A DNA stretch of 23,468 nucleotides from a virus, in IMG/VR virus record IMGVR_UViG_3300032265_002095, positions 1 to 23,468 of that record; one strand, 5' to 3'. This document shows, one piece after another, positions 1 to 20,931 of the stretch (within the stretch, counting starts at the first letter, position 1; each line of letters begins with the position of its first letter). The notes beneath the pieces are model-generated. The model saw nothing but the letters and a program-made list of their open reading frames with translations, searched no databases and was not told where the DNA came from. Both the position numbers and the translations under genes were made by a program.

Positions 1-65
1 CGTGGAATAATGAAAATTTAATTAAAAGTTATGAAAACTATATTGATAAGGCATTCAACCTTTGA
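1..65 (+). CDS. 3' end of an upstream gene (partial)
   Basis: An open frame enters from the left edge and ends at the TGA at 63-65, giving about 20 C-terminal residues that end in AFNL. It is too short to assign a function. Its stop overlaps the TTG start of the next gene in a TTGA arrangement, so it is probably the preceding member of the same sugar operon and translationally coupled to it. The codon use (AAT, TAT, ATT rich) matches the neighbouring genes. Confidence 0.55.
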   Translation, partial: WNNENLIKSYENYIDKAFNL

Positions 66-829
66 TTAAGTTAGATATCGTTTTACAAGGATTATGTGGA
101 AGCAATACCAAAGAAATTATTGAAACATATCTGTCACTAGAATTTGTAGATAAGATTATCTTAAGTAGTTACGCAAGCAGCCTTAATTTTAATTTACCCG
201 ATAGAGTGGTTTGGGTAGATAATAAAATGATTGATCCAGTAGGCTGTGGCAATCGTAATTTACAAATTAACACTAGTAAAAATGGTTTAGCAAAGGTTAC
301 CAGCAAGTACTGTGTAAAGATGCGCAGTGATCAGTTGATTCGAAGCGATAGTATGCGCCTTATGTATAATTTTTGGATTACTAACGATGACCCAGAAAAC
401 CGAAAACCGCTACCAAATAATCCTCTAGGCAGAATTTATGTATGTGGTTTGTATCGTAACTATCCATATCATCCACGTGATCACGTATTTTGGGGATTTT
501 CAGAAGATGTTAAAAACCTTTGTGATGTGCCTTTTGATTTGAATCCAGATCAAAGTGCAGATTATAACACTAAAACTAGAGCAGAAACTTATCTTGCGCA
601 GTATTATTATACCAAGTATGATAGTAGTATTCAAGAACATGTTAATAATGCTCAGCAGTTTTTAACAGATGCAGCTCCGTATAAGTCGCTGGCAATGGCA
701 AAAGATTGGGAAAATCGTGATAGGTTATTCAAGGTTTTTCCTAAAATTAGTTTAAGCTGGCCTAAACATGGTCTTGATGAATATCATTACGATGTAGGTG
801 CTATGCACAGTGAGTATTGGGCAGATTGA
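62..829 (+). CDS. WavE-like glycosyltransferase / LPS synthesis protein
   Basis: This 255-residue protein resembles the WavE family of lipopolysaccharide synthesis proteins. The supporting landmarks are an N-terminal beta-strand followed by a short helix (IVLQGLCG...TKEII), a GNRNLQI segment near residue 62, and KYCVKMRSDQLI near residues 83-94, where WavE-type enzymes carry a conserved K-x-R-(S/T)-D. The C-terminal half is rich in aromatic residues, as is common in these enzymes. The start is TTG at 62, which overlaps the previous stop (TTGA) and implies translational coupling; there is no good upstream ATG. Its stop overlaps the ATG of the HAD gene. In context it probably transfers a sugar made by the downstream enzymes onto a host or virion glycan. 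The family call is by motif resemblance; the acceptor and donor are unknown. Confidence 0.7.
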   Translation: MIKLDIVLQGLCGSNTKEIIETYLSLEFVDKIILSSYASSLNFNLPDRVVWVDNKMIDPVGCGNRNLQINTSKNGLAKVTSKYCVKMRSDQLIRSDSMRLMYNFWITNDDPENRKPLPNNPLGRIYVCGLYRNYPYHPRDHVFWGFSEDVKNLCDVPFDLNPDQSADYNTKTRAETYLAQYYYTKYDSSIQEHVNNAQQFLTDAAPYKSLAMAKDWENRDRLFKVFPKISLSWPKHGLDEYHYDVGAMHSEYWAD

Positions 830-1365
830 TGATAAAACTTTTAATTTTAGACGTAGATGGTGTAATGACAGATGGAACCAAACATTATGATCGTGATGGC
901 ATAGTTATCGCTAAGCAATTTTGCGATAAAGATTGGACAGCTATTAAACGTTTTCGTGCTATTGGGGTAAATGTTTGTTTTCTTACAGGCGATGGATATA
1001 ATAAAACTATTTTAGAAAATCGCAATCTTGATGTAATTGTTAATCGTGGCAGCGGTGAACATAATGATAAGAAACATTATTTGAACGATATCTTAGAAAA
1101 ATATAAAGTCACCGCTGAAGAAACTGCTTATGTTGGTGACGATCTTTTTGATATTGGTATAATGAAACTGGTTAAACATGCATGGTGTCCACTTGATAGT
1201 CCAATTTCTGTTCATCAAGTTGCTAAAGCTATTCCACGCAATGGCGGTAAAAATTGTATTGCTTGGTTGTATGATCATTTGGAAACAAAAGTTTTAATAC
1301 CATATGTAAAGTATGAAGATGTTATTCAAAAAATATATGATTTAGATATCGCAGAAAAATTTTAA
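829..1365 (+). CDS. KdsC-like HAD-family sugar phosphatase
   Basis: This 178-residue protein has all four HAD motifs. They are the nucleophile/acid pair in LDVDGVMTDG (Asp8, Asp10), the Thr of CFLTGDG (Thr53), a Lys at 81/82, and the acidic motif YVGDDLFD (about 101-108). The DVDGV-x-TDG form and the compact size without a cap domain match the KdsC / N-acylneuraminate-9-phosphatase subfamily, which dephosphorylates KDO-8-phosphate or similar sugar acids. The ATG at 829 overlaps the preceding stop by one base (TGATG). An in-frame TTG at 817 would extend it by four residues but is less likely. The stop again overlaps the next ATG. The probable role is removing a phosphate from an intermediate in an activated-sugar pathway encoded by the cassette. 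The true substrate cannot be read from sequence. Confidence 0.85.
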   Translation: MIKLLILDVDGVMTDGTKHYDRDGIVIAKQFCDKDWTAIKRFRAIGVNVCFLTGDGYNKTILENRNLDVIVNRGSGEHNDKKHYLNDILEKYKVTAEETAYVGDDLFDIGIMKLVKHAWCPLDSPISVHQVAKAIPRNGGKNCIAWLYDHLETKVLIPYVKYEDVIQKIYDLDIAEKF

Positions 1366-2027
1366 TGTATGATGTTGTAATATACGGTCATTTAAGTGTT
1401 GACAAGATTTATACAGGATTTAATCTTGTTGAATCACTTGGTTGTATTGCTAATACATGGAAGGCATTGAGTAACTTAAGTGCAGACATTACTATAGATG
1501 TTGAACCTACAGAAATTGGCGAAGCAATTGTATATGTCGATCCACTTGCTAGTAAACGATATAGTAAAGCTACTCTAAGCAAACGAGTTCACCATGCGCC
1601 AACTATTAAACCTTGTAAGATAAGTGCAGTTCAATATGTCAACGCACTTGTAAACACAGATTTTATTAAAGAACTAGATGGTATTGTTATGTGCGATGTA
1701 TGTACAGGCGTACCGCTAGATCATGCTTTGCTAGAACATATCGATATATTATTTGTTGCTGACAGTGAAATAGGCAATGTTGTTGATTTAAGTAAAATTT
1801 TAGATAATACTATAGTAGTAGTTCATAGTCCACAACGCAGCTTTGATAACAAAAATAATAATTTTATATTGCCTGTTGAGAATATATTAAGTAAAGTAAA
1901 TGTATTGGGTGCGGGCGATATCTATATGGCATGTTATATGTATGGATATCTTCAAGGCAAATCTGGCGCAGAGTGTCTTGAATTTGCGCATACTACTACA
2001 ACAAAAATTTTAGGAGAAAATAAGTGA
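1365..2027 (+). CDS. small PfkB-family carbohydrate kinase
   Basis: This 220-residue protein ends in the PfkB signature: VLGAGDIYMACYMYGYLQG (about residues 183-201) holds the GAGD anion hole and the catalytic Asp. The N-terminus (DVVIYGHLSVDKI) fits the first beta-strand and substrate-binding Asp of ribokinase-type folds. At 220 residues it is well short of the usual 290-320, and the Gly-rich GG-x-x-N motif is reduced to GCIANTW, so the lid region is minimal. The start codon overlaps the previous TAA (TAATG), and the stop overlaps the next gene's GTG (GTGA). The related heptokinase domain of HldE/RfaE is an attractive comparison because phosphatase, nucleotidyltransferase and isomerase genes surround it, but this is inference. 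It could be a sugar or sugar-phosphate kinase of another pathway. Confidence 0.75.
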   Translation: MYDVVIYGHLSVDKIYTGFNLVESLGCIANTWKALSNLSADITIDVEPTEIGEAIVYVDPLASKRYSKATLSKRVHHAPTIKPCKISAVQYVNALVNTDFIKELDGIVMCDVCTGVPLDHALLEHIDILFVADSEIGNVVDLSKILDNTIVVVHSPQRSFDNKNNNFILPVENILSKVNVLGAGDIYMACYMYGYLQGKSGAECLEFAHTTTTKILGENK

Positions 2028-3181
2028 AACCAACAGTATTAGTTCCAATGGCTGGTTTGGGCAGCAGATTCGTTAAAGAAGGTTATAAGGTTCCAAAACA
2101 GCTTATTACTGTTGGTAACAAACATCTTATTGATTTAAGTTTAGATTGTTTAGATTATGCAGGTTGTAATTTGGTATTCATTGTGCGTGATGAACAGGTC
2201 TATAATCATCATATTGATGAAATTTTAATTCAGAAATTTGGTAGCGATATCAAGGTTATTGTGCTTGACCATCTTACCGAAGGCAGTGTATGCAGTTGTT
2301 TATACGCAGAGGAATATATAAACAATGATTCACCACTGGTAATTCATACACTAGACGTTGAATTTGATCCACCTTTTAATGTAAGCAGCATGTTAGATTT
2401 AGAAAGTGATGGATTAATTTTAACTTTTAAAAGCAATAGCGCAAATTACAGTTATGTAGCAACAGATGAAAACGGTATCGCTGTTAAGACAGCAGAAAAG
2501 AAACCAATTAGTAGTGAAGCATGTGTTGGTGTATACGGTTACAAGCGTGGCAGTGATTTTGTAAAGTATGCTAAGCAGATGATTGCTGCTAATATACGAA
2601 CAAATAATGAATTTTATATCTCTCCACTTTACAATCTTTTCATCGAAGCTGGTCTAAAGATTACTACGCTTCCTGTTGAAAAGATGCATGTATTTGGAAC
2701 ACCAGATGAATATAACTTTTACAAGAATAATGTTAATAAGCAAATAGGTGACAAACCTGTTGCGTTATGTAGCGATCATAGCGGATTTGAAGTTAAAGAA
2801 TTGTTTAAACAAGTTCTAACAATGCGTGGTATTAATTTTATTGATTTTGGCACAAGTGTCAACAAAGACTGCGATTATAGTGATTTTATTTCACAAGCTG
2901 CTCGTTCTATGAATGAAAATGAATGTGACTATGCTTTTGGTTTTTGTCGAAGTGGTCAAGGTGTAAACATGAGTGCTAATAAACACAAAGGCATTCGCAG
3001 TGCATTAATTTATAACGAATATGCTATGGAAATGGCTATTAGACATAATTGTGCTAACTTTTTTTCAATACCAGCAAAGTATGCTGATATAGATCAGTTA
3101 ACACGATATCTTAAAATAGCAATTAATAACAGTTTTGACGGCGGTCGTCATCAAATACGTATACAAAATTTGGAAAAGTAA
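2024..3181 (+). CDS. sugar-phosphate nucleotidyltransferase fused to an RpiB/LacAB isomerase
   Basis: This is a two-domain protein of 385 residues. Residues 1-236 form a nucleotidyltransferase: PMAGLGSRFVKEGYKVPKQL (8-27) is the G-x-G-x-R...PK signature of sugar-1-phosphate nucleotidyltransferases, followed by HTLDVEF (108-114) in the metal-site position and FGTPDEYNFY (224-233) at the domain end. Residues 243-385 match ribose-5-phosphate isomerase B / galactose-6-phosphate isomerase. The matches are SDHSGFEVKE (250-259), DYSDF (284-288), the catalytic-Cys segment FCRSGQGVNMSANK (307-320, Cys308 aligning with the active Cys of RpiB), GIRSALIYNEY (323-333) and the closing FDGGRH (371-376). The start is GTG at 2024, overlapping the kinase stop (GTGA). 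It probably isomerises an aldose/ketose phosphate and activates a sugar phosphate to an NDP-sugar. I know of no standard bacterial enzyme with this exact fusion, and it fits the pathway role of the surrounding genes. Confidence 0.85.
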   Translation: MKPTVLVPMAGLGSRFVKEGYKVPKQLITVGNKHLIDLSLDCLDYAGCNLVFIVRDEQVYNHHIDEILIQKFGSDIKVIVLDHLTEGSVCSCLYAEEYINNDSPLVIHTLDVEFDPPFNVSSMLDLESDGLILTFKSNSANYSYVATDENGIAVKTAEKKPISSEACVGVYGYKRGSDFVKYAKQMIAANIRTNNEFYISPLYNLFIEAGLKITTLPVEKMHVFGTPDEYNFYKNNVNKQIGDKPVALCSDHSGFEVKELFKQVLTMRGINFIDFGTSVNKDCDYSDFISQAARSMNENECDYAFGFCRSGQGVNMSANKHKGIRSALIYNEYAMEMAIRHNCANFFSIPAKYADIDQLTRYLKIAINNSFDGGRHQIRIQNLEK

Positions 3182-3182
3182 G

Positions 3183-3509
3183 ATGCAGAAATATAATATT
3201 AAAGATTTTAAATATGGTTGGATGGTAGGTGATTTTGAACCAAGTTTATTTAGAAATCCATTCTTTGAATTAGCACATCACTTTCATGAAGCAGGCTGTA
3301 GTACATACCCACATTATCACAAAGTTACAACAGAAATGAATTATATTGTGCGTGGTGCTATGATGGTCAGTGGTGTAAGATTAGAAACAGGTGATATCTG
3401 GATTTATGAACCGCATGACTTAAGCGATGTAGAATTTCTTGAAGATACTGACCTTGTTATCCTACGTTGGCCTTCAATTCCTAGTGACAAATATATGGTG
3501 GAACCATGA
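3183..3509 (+). CDS. cupin-domain protein
   Basis: This 108-residue protein begins at the ATG at 3183, one base after the preceding stop; an upstream in-frame ATG inside the previous gene is less likely. It is a single-domain cupin. The metal-binding first motif is visible as TYPHYHKVTTEMNYIVRG (about residues 40-57), with two His and a Glu, and the second motif region is GDIWIYEPHDLSDVEF (about 70-85) with a conserved His. Such small cupins act as sugar isomerases, epimerases or binding proteins in polysaccharide pathways, or as phosphate-sugar sensors. Placement inside the sugar operon supports a pathway role, but no substrate is evident. The next gene's ATG overlaps its stop (ATGA). Confidence 0.8.
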   Translation: MQKYNIKDFKYGWMVGDFEPSLFRNPFFELAHHFHEAGCSTYPHYHKVTTEMNYIVRGAMMVSGVRLETGDIWIYEPHDLSDVEFLEDTDLVILRWPSIPSDKYMVEP

Positions 3510-3988
3510 AAAAACCAATTGCTATAGCACATCGTGGAAATACTAAAGGTGCATTTCCAGAGATGGAAAACAAACCTGAATATATTGATGCTGTTTTACT
3601 TCGTGGATTTCATGCTGAGATTGATTTGCGTGTAATTGATGGTAAACTTTTTCTAGGACATGATACACCTGATTATGAGATTTCATTAGATTGGTTGATG
3701 TTTAGAAAATTTCAACTATGGATTCATTGTAAGAATTTTGAAGCACTTCAGCTACTTGGTAATACTGATTTAAATTATTTTTGGCATGAAAATGATGCCT
3801 ATACTATTACTAGTTTAGGTTTTGGTTGGGTATATCCAGGCAATCCTGTATATGAAAATAGTGTAATGGTTATGGTTGATAAAATTCCAGAAGTGTTAAA
3901 TTGCTATGCTATTTGTTTAGATGATTTTAGTAGCCGAACAGACCTAATTCCAGTCCCAAAAACGGCAACTTATACTTTGCAAGTTTAA
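3506..3988 (+). CDS. glycerophosphodiester-phosphodiesterase-like (PLC-like TIM barrel) protein
   Basis: This 160-residue protein has the start of the GDPD/PLC-like fold: AIAHRGN (residues 6-12) carries the catalytic His-Arg, ENKPEYIDAV follows, and EIDLRVIDGKLFLGHD (38-53) has the metal-binding Glu/Asp and the second catalytic His. Later HCK and FWHENDAYT match strands around the barrel. It is shorter than typical GDPDs (about 230-300), so it may be a minimal barrel. In phage sugar clusters such proteins may hydrolyse or form phosphodiester-linked substituents; this is inference. The ATG overlaps the cupin stop. The last 62 bases are antisense to the 3' end of the epimerase on the opposite strand, so both mRNAs run into each other. 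Confidence 0.75.
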   Translation: MKKPIAIAHRGNTKGAFPEMENKPEYIDAVLLRGFHAEIDLRVIDGKLFLGHDTPDYEISLDWLMFRKFQLWIHCKNFEALQLLGNTDLNYFWHENDAYTITSLGFGWVYPGNPVYENSVMVMVDKIPEVLNCYAICLDDFSSRTDLIPVPKTATYTLQV

Positions 3989-4724
3989 GATGACTACCAG
4001 TATAGCTTCTATTACTGGTAGTTAAAACTTCAACTTTTTTATAATCTAAATTTTTAATATCGCAAAATAACTTAGCTTGTTGACTCAATGTATACTTGTT
4101 TTCATAAACACAATTTAACGCCCTATGTCTGATCTGACTGTTCAATACCAAGTCAATAACTTGCGGCACATCCTCTAAATTAAAAAAGTCATGTCTACGA
4201 TCTTCACTAATGATTACTTTGTCATCATTTAACAACCGTTGAAAGAATCTGTTAGGTGGTTCACTATAGTGTGCCAATCCAAATAGTCGTATATTATAGC
4301 AATTATCTCGTTCAAGTAAATCTATGGCTTGAGAATGTTTAAGTGCAGAATATGGTAATTTAGGTTGCACATAAAGTATATAATCTTCGTCTGCAAAGTC
4401 TATATTGCGTTCGCTATCATATTCATAACCACTGCCTAGATGAATAAACTTTTTGTATGTGCGTTGGTTAAGTAAATTATTAAACATATCTAAATTTTTT
4501 CTTAAGAAAGTATCATCTGGATTATGGATCATTTCACGACCATAAAGTGCGCAGTTGATTACAGCATCGACAGGATTGGCTGTCATATAATTAGTAGTAA
4601 CAGACAAATCCGTTAAATCAAGTTCACTGCTGCTTGGTGCTAAAACCTGATGACCATACACTGTATAATACTTTACAAGATATCTTCCAATATAACCGCT
4701 GCCACCTGTGATTAATAATTTCAT
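3927..4724 (-). CDS. extended-SDR NAD(P)-dependent sugar epimerase/reductase
   Basis: This 265-residue protein reads leftward. The N-terminal Rossmann motif is MKLLITGGSGYIGRYLVKYY (G-G-x-G-x-x-G). Asp40 lies in the DLTD stretch, INCALYG follows the fourth strand, and the active-site pair is in PYSALKHSQAIDLL (YxxxK near 145-149), with a Ser/Gly-rich strand before it (HLGSGYEY). The C-terminal substrate domain (RLFGLAHY, NRFFQRLL, FFNLEDVPQVIDLVLN) is like RmlD/WcaG-type NDP-sugar reductases and epimerases. It is the only gene of the sugar cluster on the minus strand. It has its own sigma70-like promoter placed so that the mRNA would start at or beside the ATG. It probably modifies the NDP-sugar produced by the facing operon; the exact reaction is unknown. 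Confidence 0.85.
   Translation of the reverse strand: MKLLITGGSGYIGRYLVKYYTVYGHQVLAPSSSELDLTDLSVTTNYMTANPVDAVINCALYGREMIHNPDDTFLRKNLDMFNNLLNQRTYKKFIHLGSGYEYDSERNIDFADEDYILYVQPKLPYSALKHSQAIDLLERDNCYNIRLFGLAHYSEPPNRFFQRLLNDDKVIISEDRRHDFFNLEDVPQVIDLVLNSQIRHRALNCVYENKYTLSQQAKLFCDIKNLDYKKVEVLTTSNRSYTGSHLKLAKYKLPFLGLELGLFGY
3993..4022. repeat. 10-bp perfect inverted repeat after the sugar operon
   Basis: ACTACCAGTA (3993-4002) is repeated inverted as TACTGGTAGT (4013-4022) around a 10-base loop, starting five bases after the plus-strand stop at 3988. No T run follows on either strand, so it is not a canonical intrinsic terminator. It lies inside the 3' coding end of the epimerase and could be an RNA 3'-end hairpin for the plus-strand transcript, or chance. 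Confidence 0.4.
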
Positions 4725-4730
4725 ATGATC

Positions 4731-4759
4731 ATAATATCCTAATATATAATGTATAGCAA
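4731..4759 (-). promoter_or_regulatory. sigma70-like promoter giving a leaderless epimerase mRNA
   Basis: On the minus strand: -35 TTGCTA (4759-4754), 17-base spacer, -10 TATTAT (4736-4731), then six bases before the ATG at 4724. There is no Shine-Dalgarno sequence in that gap, so transcription should start at or next to the A of the start codon. Confidence 0.55.
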
Positions 4760-4776
4760 TATTTAATGGAAAATAA

Positions 4777-5508
4777 ATGTCACCAGAAGAAAGTCATGCA
4801 CATAGTTTACAAACACTAGAATATCTTGCGCTACTAGATGAGTATCTAAATGGTATTAAAAATATTGCGGTAATGGGTGCAGGTAAAGGATTAGATGCAG
4901 TTTGGTGGGCTACTTTGTGTGATAGCAGTGGTAAACCACATAATTTTAACGTTACAGCTGTAGAACTTGCACCAAGTTTAGAAATTAAAACTGCTGGTAA
5001 AATGCAGTGGCGGTTTGAAGATATGAGCACTATTGAACTACCTCTACAAGACCTTATATGGTGCCATAATGCGCTACATCATAGTATGAATCCTGTTAGT
5101 ACATTATTTCATTGGAACAAATTGCTGCGTCAAGATGGTTTGTTGATTGTAGAGATACCTTACTCTCTTTCCGTGCATAGTCATATCAAACATAATATCG
5201 TAAATGTAGCTATGGTAAGCGGAATGTATCATGTTTATACTATGAGCAATCTTATTGTACAATTAGCAAGTGCAGGTTTTGATTGCCGTAATGCACATTT
5301 CCAATTTGACAAAGAAAGCGGATGGTTACGTGCAGCAGTTTATAAATGTGATGATAAACCACGCCTTTACAGTAGTCTTTATGAATTAAAAGAAACAAAT
5401 AGACTTCCACATTGTCTTGATAGCGCCTTAAATGGTATTGATAAATTTAACGAAAATGATTTAGTTTTAGAATGGATCGATAGATCACAATCTATACTTG
5501 CTTTGTAA
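4777..5508 (+). CDS. class I SAM-dependent methyltransferase
   Basis: This 243-residue protein has the class I methyltransferase order of motifs. NIAVMGAGKGLDAVWWATL (motif I, G-x-G-x-G, about 28-46) binds SAM. An acidic strand TAVELAP (about 62-68) follows. LIWCHNALHHSMNP (about 92-105) is the WCHNALHH variant of the post-motif region often seen in Methyltransf_11 proteins, and LLRQDGLLIVEIPYS (about 117-131) is motif III. The C-terminal half is probably the acceptor domain. The ATG at 4777 follows a weak GGA (AATGGAAAATAA). It diverges from the epimerase and may act on a sugar or other small molecule; there are no DNA methyltransferase target-recognition motifs such as DPPY. A TATAAT at 4745-4750 is a possible -10 element for it, without a convincing -35. 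Confidence 0.8.
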   Translation: MSPEESHAHSLQTLEYLALLDEYLNGIKNIAVMGAGKGLDAVWWATLCDSSGKPHNFNVTAVELAPSLEIKTAGKMQWRFEDMSTIELPLQDLIWCHNALHHSMNPVSTLFHWNKLLRQDGLLIVEIPYSLSVHSHIKHNIVNVAMVSGMYHVYTMSNLIVQLASAGFDCRNAHFQFDKESGWLRAAVYKCDDKPRLYSSLYELKETNRLPHCLDSALNGIDKFNENDLVLEWIDRSQSILAL

Positions 5509-8115: not shown

Positions 8116-9561
8116 ATGCTATGTAAAATTGTAATTCGTGATGAAGTAAATTGTAAACTTGAAGGACTTGATGTAGACACACGTCGCAGACTTGTGGCAA
8201 AATTCAAGTATGAAGTTCCCTATGCTCGTCATTTACCAAGTGTGCGATTGGGGCGGTGGGATGGCAAAGTGCCATATTTTCAATTAAGTGGTAGCACTTA
8301 TATTAACTTACTTCCAGAAGTTATTGAATATTTAACTGAACGCAATTGGGAATTTGAAATAGAAGATAATCGACACTCTCGTCAATCATTTCAGTTTACA
8401 CAAGTAGATAGCAAAACATTTGCTAACAAAACATGGCCAGTGAACCACCCTAACGCAAACCAACCAATTATCTTACGTGATTATCAAATTGATATTATCA
8501 ATAAATTTTTGTGCGATACTCAATGTGTACAAGAAATTGCAACTGGTGCTGGCAAAACTATTATGACAGCAGTGCTTAGTTACTTGGTTGAACCATATGG
8601 TCGCACTATTGTTATAGTTCCAAGTAAGAGTTTGGTTATTCAAACAGAAGCTGATTATCGCAATCTTGGGCTAGATGTTGGTGTTTATTTTGGTGAACGC
8701 AAAGAATTAGGTCGTACTCATACTATCTGCACATGGCAAAGTCTAAACAGTCTTTATAAAAGTAGTAAAGGCGTTGGTAATGAGTGGACTACAATGCTCA
8801 ACGTTGCAGCAGTTATTGTAGATGAAGTTCACCAAGCAAAAGCAGAAGTTCTTAAAACACTACTTACAACTGAGTTTGCTGGCGTTCCTATTCGTTGGGG
8901 ATTAACAGGAACTATTCCAAAAGAAAAATTTGAACAGGTTGCGCTGCTAGTATCTATTGGAAAAGTAATTAGTCAGTTAAGTGCTAGTGAATTACAAGAA
9001 CGTGGTGTATTATCTAATTGCCATGTTAATATTGTTCAAACAGTTGAACACAGTGATTTTAGAAACTATCAAGAAGAATTAAAATACCTAACAACTAATA
9101 AAGATCGTCTTGACCATATGGCAAGCCTTCTTAGTGAAGTTATTAAAACAGGAAACACACTTGTGCTAGTAGACCGTCGTGAATGCGGCGATGAATTGGT
9201 AGCACGACTGCCCAACAGTGTGTTTGTTCAAGGAGACATGAAGAATGCAAAACGCAAAGAACACTATGATGAAATTGCTAACGTCAGTGACAAAATCATT
9301 GTTGCAACTTATGGAGTGGCTGCAGTTGGCATTAATGTTCCTCGTATTTTTAACCTTGTTCTTATTGAACCTGGCAAGTCATTCGTTCGTGTCATTCAAT
9401 CTATCGGTCGTGGCATTCGTAAGGCAGAAGACAAGGACTTTGTTCAAATCTGGGACTTAACTGCAGATTGTAAGTTTGCCAAACGCCATCTAACTAAACG
9501 CAAACAGTTTTATAAAGAAGCCAACTATCCATTTACCCAAGAAAAGAGTATCTATAAATGA
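8116..9561 (+). CDS. uvsW: UvsW-like SF2 DNA/RNA helicase
   Basis: This 481-residue protein is close to the 503 residues of T4 UvsW. It has the same N-terminal substrate-recognition domain (about 1-100, with the F-K-Y...RLGRWDGK-x-P signature at about 30-53). SF2 core motifs follow: Q-motif-like LRDYQIDII (120-128), motif I IATGAGKT (141-148), motif Ia VIVPSKSLV, motif II IVDEVHQAK (234-242), motif III WGLTGTIPK (261-269), and motif VI QSIGRGIRKAED near residue 430. In T4 this enzyme unwinds branched DNA and R-loops, switching replication from origin- to recombination-dependent mode. It has its own predicted leaderless promoter after the terminator, and its stop overlaps the next gene (ATGA). 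Confidence 0.93.
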   Translation: MLCKIVIRDEVNCKLEGLDVDTRRRLVAKFKYEVPYARHLPSVRLGRWDGKVPYFQLSGSTYINLLPEVIEYLTERNWEFEIEDNRHSRQSFQFTQVDSKTFANKTWPVNHPNANQPIILRDYQIDIINKFLCDTQCVQEIATGAGKTIMTAVLSYLVEPYGRTIVIVPSKSLVIQTEADYRNLGLDVGVYFGERKELGRTHTICTWQSLNSLYKSSKGVGNEWTTMLNVAAVIVDEVHQAKAEVLKTLLTTEFAGVPIRWGLTGTIPKEKFEQVALLVSIGKVISQLSASELQERGVLSNCHVNIVQTVEHSDFRNYQEELKYLTTNKDRLDHMASLLSEVIKTGNTLVLVDRRECGDELVARLPNSVFVQGDMKNAKRKEHYDEIANVSDKIIVATYGVAAVGINVPRIFNLVLIEPGKSFVRVIQSIGRGIRKAEDKDFVQIWDLTADCKFAKRHLTKRKQFYKEANYPFTQEKSIYK

Positions 9562-15769: not shown

Positions 15770-16330
15770 ATGGATATTGACATAGATTTTGGAAACCGTG
15801 AGGATATCTTGAAACTTATCAAGCATATACCCGCATCTATACACCGTGATAATACTATTGTTAAACACAACACTGGAGTTTATATCAATCCTATTCCTGC
15901 TAATCCTATTACAGGACTAAGCAATATTGATTATAGCAAAGCCCAAGAACTTGGTTATATGAAATTAGACCTACTGAATGTTCATGTTTATAATTCAGTT
16001 CGCAGCAACGAGCATCTTGACGAACTCTGTAACCGTGAACCTAAGTGGGAACTGTTAAAAAAAAGAGATTTTGTTGCCAAACTTATTCATTTATCAAATC
16101 ATTTTGATGTCGTGCAACAACATCTTCCTACTACATTGGATCAGTTGGCTATGGTATTGGCAATCATTCGTCCATCAAAACGGCATCTTATTGGAAAACG
16201 ATGGCGAGAAATAGCTGATGAAATCTGGGTAAAATCTGATGAGGGTTATTATTTTAAACGTGCGCATGCTGTATCTTATGCACAGCTAGTAATGGTTCAT
16301 ATGAACTTATTATGCGAGTCGTTTAACTAA
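15770..16330 (+). CDS. miniature DnaE-like (polymerase III alpha) protein
   Basis: This 186-residue protein follows the catalytic core of E. coli DnaE (1160 residues) in order. MDIDIDFGNREDILKLI corresponds to the PDFDVDF catalytic motif (Asp4 and Asp6 for Asp401 and Asp403). HNTGVYINPIP (33-43) corresponds to HAGGVVIAP. GYMKLDLLNV (62-71) corresponds to VKFDFLGL (Asp67 for the third catalytic Asp555). TTLDQLAMVLAIIRPS (121-136) corresponds to the ALVALFRPGP stretch, and YYFKRAHAVSYA (160-171) corresponds to GFNKSHSAAYA. Everything else (PHP, thumb, OB fold, tau-binding region and most palm/finger insertions) is missing. An in-frame stop at 15758-15760 fixes the start. The promoter and context match the phage replication genes. 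The function is unknown: a degenerate polymerase, a decoy of the host replicase or a repurposed nucleotide-binding fold are all possible. Confidence 0.75.
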   Translation: MDIDIDFGNREDILKLIKHIPASIHRDNTIVKHNTGVYINPIPANPITGLSNIDYSKAQELGYMKLDLLNVHVYNSVRSNEHLDELCNREPKWELLKKRDFVAKLIHLSNHFDVVQQHLPTTLDQLAMVLAIIRPSKRHLIGKRWREIADEIWVKSDEGYYFKRAHAVSYAQLVMVHMNLLCESFN

Positions 16331-16681
16331 TTGAACAACACGACGTTTTGTTCTGCGTTCTGCTAGTTTAGCAATTGAAACAACATGACCTTGTTGTGCT
16401 TGAATATCTTTACATATAAGTGTCACGGTACTATAACGAAAAGGAGTCCAAGTATCTTTTAAAAATATGTTAATTGGTATTAAACGATTGCTTTCATACC
16501 ACCATATTTCTGCTGCTTCAAGAAAAGCAATTTTGTCTCTTTCAGTTTTCAATTTATTAAATGCATACATGCTAATTATGTCAGTATCAAAATTTTGTAT
16601 TACACCTATGTAATCACTATGTGTGTATCGTATATAGCTAAGGAATGGATATTTTTCAAGCATTTGTTCAATTGTATTCAT
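16310..16681 (-). CDS. small basic-tailed protein of unknown function
   Basis: This 123-residue protein reads leftward from the ATG at 16681; a more upstream ATG is less likely because promoter elements lie in that region. The first half (TIEQMLEKYPFLSYIRYTHSDYIGVIQNFDTDIISMYAFNKLKT) is an aromatic alpha/beta segment. ERDKIAFLEAAEIWWYESNRLIPINIFLKDTWTPFR is the core, and the C-terminus is basic (ERRTKRRVVQLVKRL), which suggests nucleic-acid binding. The length and layout recall short regulatory proteins of T4-like phages, but I cannot name it. Its 3' end overlaps the miniature DnaE-like gene tail to tail by 21 bases. An early-type promoter lies immediately upstream. Confidence 0.7.
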   Translation of the reverse strand: MNTIEQMLEKYPFLSYIRYTHSDYIGVIQNFDTDIISMYAFNKLKTERDKIAFLEAAEIWWYESNRLIPINIFLKDTWTPFRYSTVTLICKDIQAQQGHVVSIAKLAERRTKRRVVQLVKRLA

Positions 16682-16689
16682 AATAAATA
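16682..16689 (+). promoter_or_regulatory. late promoter motif (AATAAATA) for the structural gene
   Basis: AATAAATA at 16682-16689 would start transcription near 16696, just at a GGAG ribosome-binding site (16696-16699) that precedes the GTG at 16709. It overlaps the -10 of an opposing early promoter. Confidence 0.45.
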
Positions 16690-16714
16690 TATTGCGGAGT
16701 CCATTGTTGTGCAA
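16686..16714 (-). promoter_or_regulatory. sigma70-like promoter for the minus-strand small gene
   Basis: On the minus strand: -35 TTGCAC (16714 to 16709), 17-base spacer, -10 TATATT (16691 to 16686), four bases, ATG at 16681. This is close to, but shorter than, the six-base spacing at the other leaderless promoters, so the exact start is less sure. Confidence 0.4.
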
Positions 16715-17497
16715 CCAATTTCAGGTTATTTATATAAACAAGTTATAGTAGCAGTTAAGAACAGTGACTTTGAACCTCACAGGGAGAATCAGTTAGTGTA
16801 TGCTCGTCCATTGCAGATTTATAAAGGTGTAGATAATAAATTTCAAATTCTTCTAAAAAATGCAGACCAAAAACCTGTGAGTTTATTAGATAGCACGGTT
16901 TTATTTAATCTTATTGATCCAACATCAAAAGAATTAATTTTTAGTAGAAATTTATCAATGGTTTATAATGACACAGGAACTGCAATTGCAATAATTGAAC
17001 AACCTTTTCTTGATAATATTAGTGCAGGGTTATATAATTATAGCATTGTAGTAACAAATGGTGAAGGTGAGCAACAAATTGCTTATAGTGATGATAACTA
17101 TAATGCCCAAGGTCAAGCACGTATAAATGAAAATGTATTTCCACAATTTACACCGTCTCTGCTGCCTACTATTTTACAATATAGCAATAATAGTGATACA
17201 AATTATCAAAATGTTGCATATACAAGCACCAGTATTATTTCAGATCGTGTAAAAAGCGTAGCAGTGCAACAAACTGTTCAATATAATGCAAATTCTTTTA
17301 CTGGTAATATTGATTTACAAGCTACCCAAGAAATACCAACTGCACTTAATCCAAACTCTTATATTACAATAGATACTATTACACTTAACAATTTTAGTGG
17401 TAACGGTTATTTTAACTTTCAAGGCAAATTTAATGCCGTTCGATTTAAAGTTACACAAAACAGTGGTGCAGTTAATTATATAGCATATCGTCCTTGA
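16709..17497 (+). CDS. BppU-like virion/baseplate accessory protein
   Basis: This 262-residue, all-beta protein starts at the GTG at 16709, nine bases after GGAG; upstream in-frame codons are antisense to the small minus-strand gene and less plausible. Residues about 30-115 (LQIYKGVDNKFQILLKN, VLFNLIDPTSKELIF, GTAIAIIEQPFLDNISAGLYNYSI) read as an immunoglobulin-like domain of the type at the N-terminus of BppU-like baseplate proteins, where the first strand is followed by D-x-x-(V/T)-x-F-x-(L/I). The C-terminal half (about 150-262) is rich in Asn, Thr and Gln with alternating hydrophobic residues and ends in FKVTQNSGAVNYIAY, suggesting a second beta domain exposed on the virion. The late motif directly upstream agrees with a structural role. 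Confidence 0.6.
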   Translation: MQPISGYLYKQVIVAVKNSDFEPHRENQLVYARPLQIYKGVDNKFQILLKNADQKPVSLLDSTVLFNLIDPTSKELIFSRNLSMVYNDTGTAIAIIEQPFLDNISAGLYNYSIVVTNGEGEQQIAYSDDNYNAQGQARINENVFPQFTPSLLPTILQYSNNSDTNYQNVAYTSTSIISDRVKSVAVQQTVQYNANSFTGNIDLQATQEIPTALNPNSYITIDTITLNNFSGNGYFNFQGKFNAVRFKVTQNSGAVNYIAYRP

Positions 17498-17521
17498 CTT
17501 TTGTTATAAATCTGTTATATT
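17494..17521 (+). promoter_or_regulatory. sigma70 promoter giving a leaderless primase mRNA
   Basis: -35 TTGACT (17494-17499), 16-base spacer, -10 TATATT (17516-17521), six bases, ATG at 17528. There is no Shine-Dalgarno sequence. The -35 overlaps the stop region of the preceding gene (stop at 17495-17497). Confidence 0.6.
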
Positions 17522-17527
17522 AAGTAC

Positions 17528-18526
17528 ATGGAAATAACTAACCAAATCATGCAGCATCTGCCATGGAAACGTAAATCCACACCTAGCGGTTGGATAAGTT
17601 TCAATGCTGTATGCTGTCATCATAATGGTCAAAGTGTAGATACTCGTGGTCGAGGTGGTGTTATACGTTCACCAGAAGGCGGTATCACTACTCACTGTTT
17701 TAATTGTCATTATACTGCCGCTTGGCAACCTGGCAATCGACTATCATATAAGATGCGTAGATGGATGAGTTGGCTTGGTATAGCTGATGAAATTATTAGC
17801 AAATGCAGTTTATTTGCACTTGCACAATCAACACCAGATGGGCCACGTGAAGAAATACATAAATTACCAAACTATGAACCACGTGATATTTGTCCTGGTC
17901 GTCCTATTACAAGTTGGTTAAATGATGGATATATTAATGAAAACGATTATAACAGTCTTAAAAGTGCTATCAATTATCTTGATAGCAGAGGTTTTAACGA
18001 TAAGCTACATGAGTTTTATTGGACAGCAGATGCGTCATTGCGTAACCGTGTGTTAGTTCCATTTACTTGGAAAAACAGACCTATGGGTTACAGTGGCCGA
18101 CTATTTGAAGATGGCAAAAAGAAAATCAAATACTTTTCAAACTATCCAAGCAATATGGTTTGGGGGTATGACCGTCAAAGTAAGGAAGCAAAGTTTTGCA
18201 TCGTTGTAGAAGGATTGTTAGATGCAGTTGCAATAAATGCACTTGCAATTTGTAGTAATGAAGTTAATGATATTCAGGCAGAAATTATTGAGTCACTTGA
18301 CCGTGATATCATTGTTGTGCCTGATCGTGATAAAGCTGGTATAGAAATGGTAAATGCTGCACTCAAATATGGATGGAGTGTAGCATTCCCTGATTGGGAA
18401 AGTGGTATTAAAGATACCGCAGATGCAGTTGCTAAGTATGGGCAGTTGTTTACGATGCGTAGTATCTTAGATAGTGTTCAAAGTAGCAAGTTGAAAATTC
18501 AATTGATGTCAAAGAAATGGTATTAA
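17528..18526 (+). CDS. DNA primase (T4 gp61-like, TOPRIM)
   Basis: This 332-residue protein is close to T4 gp61 (342). An N-terminal zinc ribbon is formed by CCHHNG (about 29-34) and THCFNCHYTAAW (about 56-67). The catalytic region has RNRVLVPFTW and the TOPRIM fold, with FCIVVEGLLDAVAINAL (about 224-240; conserved Glu) and IIVVPDRDKAGIEMV (about 262-276; D-x-D). It makes RNA primers for lagging-strand synthesis and works with the hexameric helicase encoded at 19279, where T4 gp61 and gp41 form the primosome. The gene has a strong leaderless promoter. An AT-rich SGNH-like gene starts inside its last ten bases and separates it from the helicase. Confidence 0.92.
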   Translation: MEITNQIMQHLPWKRKSTPSGWISFNAVCCHHNGQSVDTRGRGGVIRSPEGGITTHCFNCHYTAAWQPGNRLSYKMRRWMSWLGIADEIISKCSLFALAQSTPDGPREEIHKLPNYEPRDICPGRPITSWLNDGYINENDYNSLKSAINYLDSRGFNDKLHEFYWTADASLRNRVLVPFTWKNRPMGYSGRLFEDGKKKIKYFSNYPSNMVWGYDRQSKEAKFCIVVEGLLDAVAINALAICSNEVNDIQAEIIESLDRDIIVVPDRDKAGIEMVNAALKYGWSVAFPDWESGIKDTADAVAKYGQLFTMRSILDSVQSSKLKIQLMSKKWY

Positions 18527-19254
18527 AAATAGCAGCATTTGGTTGTTCTGTTACGTTTGGTGATGAATTTATAGATTCATCACATAATGATATTATTGTT
18601 CCTAGTAATCATATTTGGGTAAACCATTTATTAAATGATGCTGAAATATTTAACTATGCTATATCTGGTGCAGGCTGTGATCAAATAATGAAAAGAATTT
18701 TAGCTGTAGATTTGACAGAAATTAATTTGGTTGTTGTTATGTGGACTTATATGGAAAGATTAACACTTTACAAAGATAATTTTCCTATAAATTTTTCGCC
18801 TAATCAATTTGTGTGTTACGATCAAGATATTAATATCAACAAACTTCTTTTAAACAAATTTAAAGATAAATCTAAATTAAAAAATTTACAAAATGTATAT
18901 GAAACAATCTTTTGCGAACAAAAGATGCTGTATAATGATTATTTTAAAAATATATTATTGGCTCAACAATACCTTGAATTGCATAACAAAAAATTTTATT
19001 TTACTACAGTATTTAATTATTTTCATGAATATGAACTTATCAGGAAAAAAATTAATAGTATAAAAAATGATACAGATATTTTTTATTCTAACATTAACAG
19101 AAGTAAATTTTTTTTACCAGAAGATTTAGGATTTAAACAATGGACAAACAAGTATAATTATGATAAATTTGAACGAGGACATTATAAAGAACAAGCACAC
19201 ATAGAATTTTCATCCTTATTTAAAAGTTGGATTGATAATAATAATGACAATTAA
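18517..19254 (+). CDS. second SGNH/GDSL-like protein
   Basis: This 245-residue protein starts with KIAAFGCSVTFGDEFIDS (4-21). The FGCS-x-TFG form is the block I of a phage SGNH-like group in which Ser11 would be the nucleophile and Cys replaces the usual Asp of GDS. ISGAGCDQIMKRIL (about 49-62) matches block II with its Gly, and LVVVMWTYMERL (about 70-81) stands in for block III. HYKEQAHIEFSSLFKSWI near the end gives the catalytic His position. It overlaps the primase stop by ten bases without a visible Shine-Dalgarno sequence, so it is probably translated by coupling. The coding sequence is AT-rich (many TTT, AAA, AAT), unlike the primase and helicase on either side, which suggests it was inserted between them. 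Acyl-sugar hydrolase or transferase activity is plausible but not shown. Confidence 0.65.
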   Translation: MVLKIAAFGCSVTFGDEFIDSSHNDIIVPSNHIWVNHLLNDAEIFNYAISGAGCDQIMKRILAVDLTEINLVVVMWTYMERLTLYKDNFPINFSPNQFVCYDQDININKLLLNKFKDKSKLKNLQNVYETIFCEQKMLYNDYFKNILLAQQYLELHNKKFYFTTVFNYFHEYELIRKKINSIKNDTDIFYSNINRSKFFLPEDLGFKQWTNKYNYDKFERGHYKEQAHIEFSSLFKSWIDNNNDN

Positions 19255-19272
19255 ATAAATTTAAGATATAAT
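19244..19272 (+). promoter_or_regulatory. sigma70 promoter giving a leaderless helicase mRNA
   Basis: -35 ATGACA (19244-19249), 17-base spacer, consensus -10 TATAAT (19267-19272), six bases, ATG at 19279. There is no Shine-Dalgarno sequence in the gap. Confidence 0.6.
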
Positions 19273-19278
19273 TACCCA

Positions 19279-20685
19279 ATGGCAAAAACATACGATAGTT
19301 CAATACAAAAACTGTTTATAGAGATGATGTTGAGTGATCCTCAAAGTTATGTGCGTATACAAAATATTTTTAACCCGAATAATTTTGATCGCAGTTTGCA
19401 AAGTGCAGCCAAATTTATTAAAGAACACTGTGAAAACCACACAGTAATGCCTGTTGTTGAGCAGATTAATGCTGCTACTCACAATACATTTGATATTGTG
19501 CCTGGCATAACAGATGATCATACTGCTTGGTTTTTAGAAGAATTTGAAGGATTTACCAAACAAAAAGAACTTGAACGTGCTATTCTTAAAGCTGCAGATA
19601 TGCTTGAAAGTGGTGATTTTGATCCTGTTGAAAAGATTATCAAAGATGCTGTTCAAATTAGTTTAACAAAAGATTTAGGAACAGATTATTTTGCTGATCC
19701 ACGTGCTCGTTTGATGAAAATCAAAGATAATAATGGTCAGGTTTCTACAGGTTGGAGTGCGCTTGATCAAAAATTATTTGGTGGTTTTAATAAAGGTGAA
19801 TTAAACATCTTTGCTGGCGGCAGTGGCAGTGGTAAATCACTGTTTATGCAAAACATTGCTGTTAATTGGATGCAGAGTGGATTAAATGGTGTATATATTA
19901 CACTGGAGTTGAGTGAGGAACTTACCTCTATGCGTATAGATAGTATGATTACTAACATTGCTACCAGAGATATCTTTAAGGATATTGATACTGTAGATAT
20001 GAAAGTTGTCATGGTAGGCAAAAAAAGTGGTAGATTACAAATAAAATATTTGCCAGCACAAAGCAATATTAATGATATTCGTGCATATGTCAAAGAGTTA
20101 CAAATACGCAGTGGTCGCCGTGTTGACTTTATTATGATTGACTATCTTGACCTACTCATGCCTGTTAGTGCTAAGGTTAGTCCCAGTGATTTGTTTGTTA
20201 AAGACAAGTATGTTAGTGAAGAAATTCGTAACTTTGCAAAAGAAATGCAGTTGTTATTGGTAACAGCATCACAGTTAAACCGTGCAAGTGTTGAAGAGGT
20301 TGAGTTTGATCATAGTCATATCAGTGGCGGTATTTCCAAAATTAACACTGCAGATAATTTATTTGGTATTTTTACTTCTCGTAGCATGCGTGAACACGGC
20401 AAATATCAGTTACAAATTATGAAGACACGCAGCAGTAGTGGTGTAGGACAAAAGATTGAATTAGAGTTTGATATTGATAGTCTGCGTATTCGTGATTTGG
20501 CAGAAGACCCTGATTATCAACAGTTTAAGAAGCAGAGTAGCAGTATATTTGCTAGTATTAAAGGTGGTTCTAATGTTAAACCTGCAACAGATGCAGTTTC
20601 CGAAGATCAACCAGGCAAAATTGTAGCAGATGTCAACAGCAGTGCACTGCGTCAGATGCTAGCTAACTTGAAACAGAAGAGTTAA
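19279..20685 (+). CDS. replicative DNA helicase (T4 gp41-like, DnaB family)
   Basis: This 468-residue protein is very close to T4 gp41 (475). The N-terminal helical domain covers about 1-130. A linker follows, then the RecA-like core: GWSALDQKLFGGFNKGELN (about 158-176), Walker A FAGGSGSGKS (about 178-187), ITLELSEELTSMRID, Walker B VDFIMIDYLDLL (about 286-297), TASQLNRAS (about 330-338; sensor Gln) and an arginine-finger region near ISKINTADNLFGIFTSR. It ends with an extra 50-residue tail rich in Ser, Lys and Gln. As a hexamer it unwinds the replication fork 5'-3' together with the gp61-like primase. Its 3' end overlaps a broken gene on the other strand by 23 bases. Confidence 0.93.
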   Translation: MAKTYDSSIQKLFIEMMLSDPQSYVRIQNIFNPNNFDRSLQSAAKFIKEHCENHTVMPVVEQINAATHNTFDIVPGITDDHTAWFLEEFEGFTKQKELERAILKAADMLESGDFDPVEKIIKDAVQISLTKDLGTDYFADPRARLMKIKDNNGQVSTGWSALDQKLFGGFNKGELNIFAGGSGSGKSLFMQNIAVNWMQSGLNGVYITLELSEELTSMRIDSMITNIATRDIFKDIDTVDMKVVMVGKKSGRLQIKYLPAQSNINDIRAYVKELQIRSGRRVDFIMIDYLDLLMPVSAKVSPSDLFVKDKYVSEEIRNFAKEMQLLLVTASQLNRASVEEVEFDHSHISGGISKINTADNLFGIFTSRSMREHGKYQLQIMKTRSSSGVGQKIELEFDIDSLRIRDLAEDPDYQQFKKQSSSIFASIKGGSNVKPATDAVSEDQPGKIVADVNSSALRQMLANLKQKS

Positions 20686-20873
20686 ATTTTTCTAGCTTTA
20701 ATGTCCGCACATTTTGGCATTCAATATACTGACTGCCATTGCTTGTTTTAACTTTGCCTACGCCACACACTACATCATAGTCATGATATGCTACTGGACC
20801 TTTTACCAGTAGGTCAATATATTTTCCGTTACCAACGCCAAGTGTAAGAAAAGTAATATACTTGTAGTTTCAT
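20663..20873 (-). pseudogene. frameshifted small gene (about 69 codons)
   Basis: On the minus strand an ATG (20873-20871) with AAGGG about six bases upstream is followed by AAACTAC. Read as it stands, it reaches a stop after 14 codons. Dropping one A of the AAA at 20870-20868 gives a continuous frame of 69 residues to the TAG at 20665-20663. It starts MNYKYITFLTLGVGNGKYID and has codon use (AGC, GGC, GTA) like its neighbours. The predicted product is beta-rich (YIDLLVKGPVAYHDYDVV, CGVGKVKT, QYIECQNVRTLKL). No other in-frame start exists upstream. It may be a real frameshift mutation, a programmed shift or an assembly error. I do not recognise the family. Confidence 0.6.
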
Positions 20874-20931
20874 TGATTGCCCTTTTTGCCTAATATGCCA
20901 ATATAACAATATTTACACTGTTTTTTTACTA

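Follow-up and report, generated by a model that had tools for sequence, protein, structure and literature searches.

Gene B and its relatives

The stretch of viral DNA analysed here (the window, 23,468 nt) encodes a short protein in which the original prediction saw a miniature DnaE retaining the catalytic core of the bacterial DNA polymerase III (Pol III) alpha subunit. We asked what such a protein can be: a complete minimal enzyme, one part of a larger enzyme, a mimic of the host replicase, or the remnant of a decayed gene. Its gene, hereafter gene B, is located as follows:

15770..16330, + strand: gene B, corresponding to the C-terminal half of a split minimal Pol III alpha (ORF, 186 aa, phrog_11778)

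The reading frame is intact, as had been claimed. It begins with the first possible ATG; the open frame reaches only three codons further 5', and an in-frame stop lies four codons upstream of the start. B was assigned to phrog_11778, labelled 'DNA polymerase' in PHROGs (E = 9.1e-61), and the Pfam search of B recognised no family. Homologues were found in 90 annotated phage records at approximately 30–50% identity, 89 of them covering at least 80% of the length of B. The carriers include the RaK2/GAP32/121Q/CBB group, PA5oct/MIJ3/Paride, Atu_ph07, Phosso, and Vibrio 2.275.O, as well as XacN1/XaC1, SCTP-2, RAS14/CM1, and Slickus01. In IMG/VR, 50 close relatives were present, and a scan with the B profile matched at least 575 stretches. 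The length of the frames was nearly constant (182–202 aa, n = 136).

A phmmer search of the PDB with B alone gave no match, and DnaE was reached by profiles only. The profile search of all PDB sequences, built from 21 diverse B proteins, yielded ten matches at E values up to 10, nine of which were DnaE or Pol III alpha. A DnaE signal, which the original prediction had called for, is present, with a weak E value: the best match (E = 0.015) was aligned in four collinear segments, i.e. DIDID, the GV/IP segment, KxD...RP, and KSHaxxY. In the fourth segment, the K163..Y170 helix of B aligned with F-KSHAAGY of the 5lew chain. In a shuffle control, E. coli DnaE and a phage DnaE-like protein (locus L060, see below) scored above 1000 of 1000 shuffled copies with the B profile and also with the profile of the partner protein A. 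The AlphaFold model of B alone had a pLDDT of 93.9 and a pTM of 0.85. When it was compared with the PDB by Foldseek, matches 1–13 were all Pol III alpha (probability 0.87–1.00); everything else had a probability of 0.06 or less, starting with the 14th match (0.04). The proposed check of the predicted fold also spoke for Pol III alpha, and the resemblance of B to DnaE is real and above chance.

Predicted catalytic residues of B

Five DnaE motifs follow one another in B in the expected order (D(I)D(I)D, KHxxG, KxDxL, RP, and K[RS]H), which bears out the suggested collinearity. Their positions and E. coli DnaE counterparts are as follows:

15773..15787, + strand: DIDID motif with D2, D4, and D6; D2/D4 correspond to the Mg ligands D401/D403 of E. 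coli, D6 to D405
15866..15877, + strand: H33-x-x-G36, counterpart of DnaE HAGG (E. coli 511–514); H33 and G36 invariant
15962..15970, + strand: K65-x-D67, counterpart of E. coli K553 and D555 (third Mg ligand); K65 and D67 invariant
16169..16180, + strand: R134-P135-x-K137, counterpart of DnaE FRPGP; invariant, aligned by hhalign to DnaE 529–642
16256..16279, + strand: K163..H166...Y170 helix, counterpart of DnaE NKSHSAAY; H166 and Y170 invariant

The computed motif starts in E. coli DnaE were 401 for DFDVD and 552 for VKFD. E. coli D401, D403, and D555 are metal ligands throughout the C family, while D405 is invariant in DnaE and is Asn in PolC (Timinskas et al., PMC3919608). All three family C catalytic aspartates are present in B. 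Since D401 and D403 are the first and the second Asp of DFDVD, the Mg ligands of B should be D2, D4, and D67, judging from the aligned sequences. The original prediction was correct in that the aspartates are retained and in its choice of Asp67, but its Asp4 and Asp6 are shifted by two residues with respect to the ligands D2 and D4. The presence of D6, the equivalent of D405, indicates that B is DnaE-like and not PolC-like.

Conservation was assessed for 96 B proteins and 80 A proteins, which remained after dropping sequences more than 90% identical. In the B set, D2, D4, D6, H33, G36, K65, D67, L69, W93, R134, P135, K137, H166, and Y170 were conserved in 100% of the proteins. No homologue of this dereplicated set had lost any of the four aspartates, in agreement with the expectation that they are maintained. 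Because the invariant residues form the base of the active site, catalysis by them is very probably retained. The same data bear on the reading of B as a decaying fragment of a DnaE gene, which could be suspected because more than 80% of DnaE is absent and a real DnaE-like deletion remnant is located nearby (20675-20914). Intact frames of near-constant length with invariant catalytic residues in 96 non-redundant B proteins, as well as synteny kept from Agrobacterium to Klebsiella phages, leave this reading practically no probability; frequent stops or loss of D2, D4, or D67 were looked for among the B homologues and not seen.

Parts of DnaE missing from B

Between D6 and H33, B has 27 residues compared to 106 in E. 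coli DnaE (D405–H511), a stretch which we take to hold the thumb insertion (domain limits of the 2006 structures). Similarly, R134 and H166 are 32 residues apart vs. 121 in E. coli (R639–H760), where the stretch contains QEQVM and RRAMGKK. Thus, B has neither the thumb insertion nor the QEQVM/RRAMGKK finger segment. DnaE holds the dNTP and the duplex by its finger segment and thumb insertion, so efficient templated synthesis by a protein devoid of both is doubtful unless other partners contribute. The GRGS segment of the palm is also absent from the B chain and is carried, in invariant form, by a second protein, A. The description of B as a miniature DnaE with its catalytic core is therefore right as to kinship with DnaE, but half of that core, the one with GRGS, belongs to another gene.

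The original prediction also considered a mimic that engages the host clamp or replisome. Such a mimic would be catalytically dead, attach to the host clamp, tau, or replisome, and take it over or inhibit it; B does resemble a part of the host DnaE, and many phages encode replisome-modifying proteins. This suggestion is left without support, as B stops short of the DnaE regions for beta clamp and tau binding. In addition, a dead mimic would not need absolutely conserved catalytic residues, and the same residues occur in relatives on hosts from Agrobacterium to Klebsiella, Xanthomonas, and Vibrio. We regard a mimic as highly improbable.

A and B together comprise approximately 360 residues. The sole DnaE match of A covers DnaE 321–393, and B extends no further than the NKSHSAAY helix near DnaE 760–780. 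The PHP, HhH, clamp-binding, OB, and tau-binding parts are missing from A and B alike. A Pol3 core is normally flanked by the PHP and (HhH)2 domains and a clamp-binding motif (Timinskas et al., PMC3919608); A and B together lack this set of features of a C-family polymerase.

The partner gene A and the split point

When whole genomes of B-bearing phages were searched with PF07733 (DNA_pol3_alpha), a second ORF of approximately 170–185 aa, hereafter gene A, was detected in every one of them. A matched only positions ~18–98 of the 260-position model (E down to 5e-12) and belongs to phrog_11127 (~175 aa, E down to 3e-85). Its profile found Pol III alpha in the PDB at E = 7.7e-4. The AlphaFold model of A alone had a pLDDT of 91.1, and its best fold matches in the PDB were Pol III alpha. 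Two short misread frames aside, the A frames were 165–213 aa long (n ~ 94). R124, E128, and GxGRGS (numbering of the L062 frame) were conserved in 100% of the 80 A proteins.

The C-terminal 71–75 residues of A correspond to DnaE 321–393 and stop exactly at FLN (hhalign E = 4.5e-6). For example, one A protein ends with ...IWGVGRGSSVASYVLFLIGVHKVDSLKYNLDIKEFLK(stop), equivalent to the segment ~359–393 of E. coli DnaE. The last residues of A are EFLK or EFLR, located at the stop or a few residues before it. The next conserved DnaE motif after FLN is PDFDVDF, i.e. the beginning of B, in which xDIDID is found 0–29 residues from the frame start. Since A stops at FLN and B opens at the counterpart of PDFDVDF, the split falls in the short loop between FLN (E. 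coli 391–393) and PDFDVD (400–405). No A–B fusion was detected among the approximately 94 A frames and 136 B frames fetched.

In the B-bearing records of at least 130 kb searched first, A accompanied B in 15 of 15: Atu_ph07, RaK2, Paride, Phosso, Vibrio 2.275.O, XacN1, SCTP-2, RAS14, Slickus01, XaC1, GAP32, 121Q, and three IMG/VR contigs. Seven of ten further large IMG/VR contigs contained both genes; one (289 kb) had no B and two (191 and 201 kb) had no A, and these single-partner contigs may be incomplete. The two genes are distant from each other (33.6 kb in RaK2, ~44 kb in Paride, ~182 kb in Atu_ph07, and ~224 kb in Phosso), and in the virus under study A lies outside the 23-kb fragment.

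These observations weigh on the possibility that B alone is a minimal polymerase or nucleotidyltransferase, for which its three metal-binding aspartates and its confidently predicted solo fold could be cited. GRGS is missing from B and invariant in A, and A accompanies B in all 15 records mentioned above, so an enzyme made of B alone appears very unlikely. The proposal of a minimal nucleotidyltransferase survives only for B acting with A, which brings GRGS, and fails for B by itself.

The same genomes encode another replicative polymerase. Of the 15 B-bearing relatives, 14 have a family B polymerase (PF00136 above the cut-off), and only a 130-kb contig gave no such match; no family A polymerase was found in the seven records tested. 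Alishewanella phage Slickus01 (L077 / OQ508957.1) has a complete genome of 141 kb, below the jumbo threshold, with both A and B; the pair is thus not confined to jumbo phages. In this genome, B lies near the clamp-loader small-subunit gene with A ~11 kb away, and the family B polymerase match spans two frames (578 and 322 aa).

Gene neighbourhood

The claim that B lies among replication genes was confirmed by a primase, a DnaB/gp41 helicase, and a UvsW-like helicase in the window:

8116-9561: UvsW-like helicase
16310..16714, − strand: convergent small gene (phrog_11637, E = 3e-31), sharing 21 bases with the 3' end of B
17528..18526, + strand: DnaG-type primase, T4 gp61-like (phrog_47, E = 1e-25; same order in relatives)
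19279..20685, + strand: DnaB-type helicase, T4 gp41-like (phrog_19, E = 9e-66; DnaB_C, E = 5e-21)

The conserved block consists, in this order, of small genes, B, the convergent small gene, a virion protein gene, the gp61-type primase, and the gp41-type helicase (15770-20685 in the window). XacN1 and RAS14 kept B without the adjacent primase and helicase. In most B-bearing phages examined, among them Atu_ph07, RaK2, Paride, Phosso, GAP32, and 121Q, a small convergent gene likewise comes directly after B; in XacN1 and RAS14, it is displaced by one gene. The convergent gene is a conserved positional partner of B, and there is no evidence for its membership in the enzyme. Gene A, in turn, precedes the gp44 clamp-loader gene by a few genes in RaK2 and Paride; in Phosso, an AAA-ATPase occupies the corresponding place. 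Directly downstream of A, phrog_14844 was found in Paride and Atu_ph07. With B by the primase and helicase and A by the clamp loader, both halves belong to replisome gene clusters, which are usually tens to hundreds of kb apart.

The suggestion that B is promoter-driven was not upheld: sigma-70-like matches were at chance level (6 found vs. 6.9 expected). T4-late-like TATAAATA sites were likewise no more frequent than expected by chance. In another part of the window (62-5508), inspection of the translations by eye revealed a surface-sugar-like cluster with a HAD-type phosphatase, a sugar kinase-like protein, a nucleotidyltransferase fused to an RpiB-like domain, a cupin, an NAD-dependent epimerase-like protein, and a methyltransferase.

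A third, single-chain family C gene

One more family C gene, convergent with the helicase gene, is present at ten B-bearing loci closely related to the window (e.g. L021, L003, and L017). It encodes an intact single-chain PHP-less DnaE-like protein of 566–582 aa that has the full set of motifs, fingers included. Its copies and the corresponding region of the window are listed below:

L060:1411-3156: single-chain DnaE-like gene, intact
L021:15407-17152, − strand: single-chain DnaE-like gene, intact
L003, L017, L002, L015, L016, L020, L006, L038, L048: single-chain DnaE-like gene, also intact
20675-20914, − strand (window): deletion remnant of the single-chain DnaE-like gene, two ends only, in different frames

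The remnant comprises the final ~63 residues together with a stretch near the N-terminus, with ~1.5 kb lost between them, and is still flanked by the radical-SAM and helicase neighbours. A natural deletion or a join made in assembly may account for it. Since B is intact beside it, the split enzyme is independent of the single-chain one.

The L060 protein (phrog_405) has no PHP, as is the case for A and B, and combines RGS, DIDID, HCGG, KVD, RP, RRAFAKK, and RAH in one chain. It differs from A/B in being unsplit and in keeping the finger domain PF17657, which is missing from B. Its nearest relative in annotated phages is from the 484-kb uncultured phage LR756508 (37%). The hhalign alignment of B with the L060 protein placed the DIDID of B on a second DxDID (182) instead of the true one (121), probably due to the missing thumb; for this reason, the two proteins were anchored by motifs. 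A 338-kb IMG/VR contig (G001, comprising L021, L060, L063, and L071) encodes a family B polymerase, the split A/B, and the single-chain PHP-less DnaE-like protein.

Proposed function of A and B

From the homology and the position of the split, B is likely to be a subunit of a two-gene family C polymerase which it forms with A, without PHP and thumb, and which exists beside a family B polymerase. That A and B form one catalytic site is very likely. A would provide the N-terminal part of the palm with the triphosphate-binding GRGS motif (the Pol beta-like 'GS' motif), and B would provide D2, D4, and D67 for two metal ions, together with K65 and a finger stub; GRGS of A and D2/D4/D67/K65 of B would thus make up one Pol beta-type site. 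As the chain is broken in the loop between FLN and (P)DxDxD, the two sides of the active site must join non-covalently.

DNA synthesis on a template by A and B is moderately probable, and some other nucleotidyl transfer has an appreciable, though clearly smaller, chance. In the latter case, A and B would be an active but non-templated nucleotidyltransferase that has lost fingers and thumb and serves end-tailing, primer tagging, or modification of RNA or nucleotides. Only palm and a finger stub are left (27 vs. 106 and 32 vs. 121 residues), with the three Asp, the Lys, and GRGS invariant, as such an enzyme would have them. But the neighbours are replisome components, and the RP and KSH residues at the base of the fingers are invariant and have no obvious use in a bare transferase, so we consider this reading rather unlikely.

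We favour the two-chain polymerase. It may act as an accessory polymerase of the replisome, in gap filling, primer extension or handoff, or repair, and not as the main replicase; this role is suggested by the position of A near a clamp-loader gene and of B near primase and helicase genes, and by the family B replicase encoded in addition. Possibly, although we think it unlikely, the obligate two-chain enzyme represents a new functional class of Pol beta-fold nucleotidyltransferase, without a thumb and without fingers that close on the substrate. In that case, it would be, for example, an enzyme dedicated to primer extension, gap filling, or end modification and brought in by the primase or the clamp loader, rather than a shortened replicase.

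If A/B works, few family C catalytic units would be smaller, and its active site would be common to two separately encoded chains; it would show what the bacterial replicase palm is capable of when PHP, thumb, most of the fingers, and clamp binding are absent. It also bears on the question of why T4-like giant phages with a family B replicase retain the core of a bacterial-type polymerase as well.

Comparison with known systems

A split minimal Pol III alpha was predicted earlier for 'group 2.2' jumbo phages, by Iyer et al. 2021 (PMC7824862). The system described there agrees with ours in that an N-terminal NTP-binding protein and a separate C-terminal Mg/DNA-binding protein are encoded by distant genes, and a family B polymerase is present in the same genomes (here, those of the relatives). 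B of the window is a further case of a known, computationally predicted kind. Earlier articles had mentioned just a single protein each: the truncated alpha-like CBB_328 of 172 aa (PMC5259590) and a predicted alpha subunit in Atu_ph07 (PMC6102473). No laboratory test of the split polymerase was found in the literature searched. New here are the exact split point, the residues found invariant over ~100 sequences, the co-occurrence counts, the structural check, a carrier that is not a jumbo phage, and the third gene; some of this may already be contained in the figures and supplements of Iyer et al.

Iyer et al. also stated that no further Pol III domains occur in phages carrying the split form, and claimed that the minimal form resembles an ancestral one, a claim on which a working A/B would bear. 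On contig G001, PF17657 fingers are present too, in a separate protein.

Bacterial DnaE (E. coli, T. aquaticus, and M. tuberculosis) shares with A/B the GRGS motif (on A), DxDxD with the DnaE-type third Asp, the collinear HxxG, KxD, RP, and KSH motifs of B, and the fold. A/B differs from it in consisting of two chains and in having no PHP, thumb insertion, QEQVM/RRAMGKK, HhH, clamp-binding, OB, and tau-binding parts. In Microbacterium phages (e.g. PP978795.1, 41110-41472), a match of the A query crosses the adjacent genes 55 and 56, both annotated as DnaE-like Pol III alpha; this interrupted DnaE is possibly a frameshift or an independent split.

Family C polymerases made from two genes are also known from cyanobacteria, in which DnaE is split by an intein. 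A/B is divided at another site and has no room for intein halves, as A stops near EFLK and B starts with xDIDID; hence, the A and B chains stay separate.
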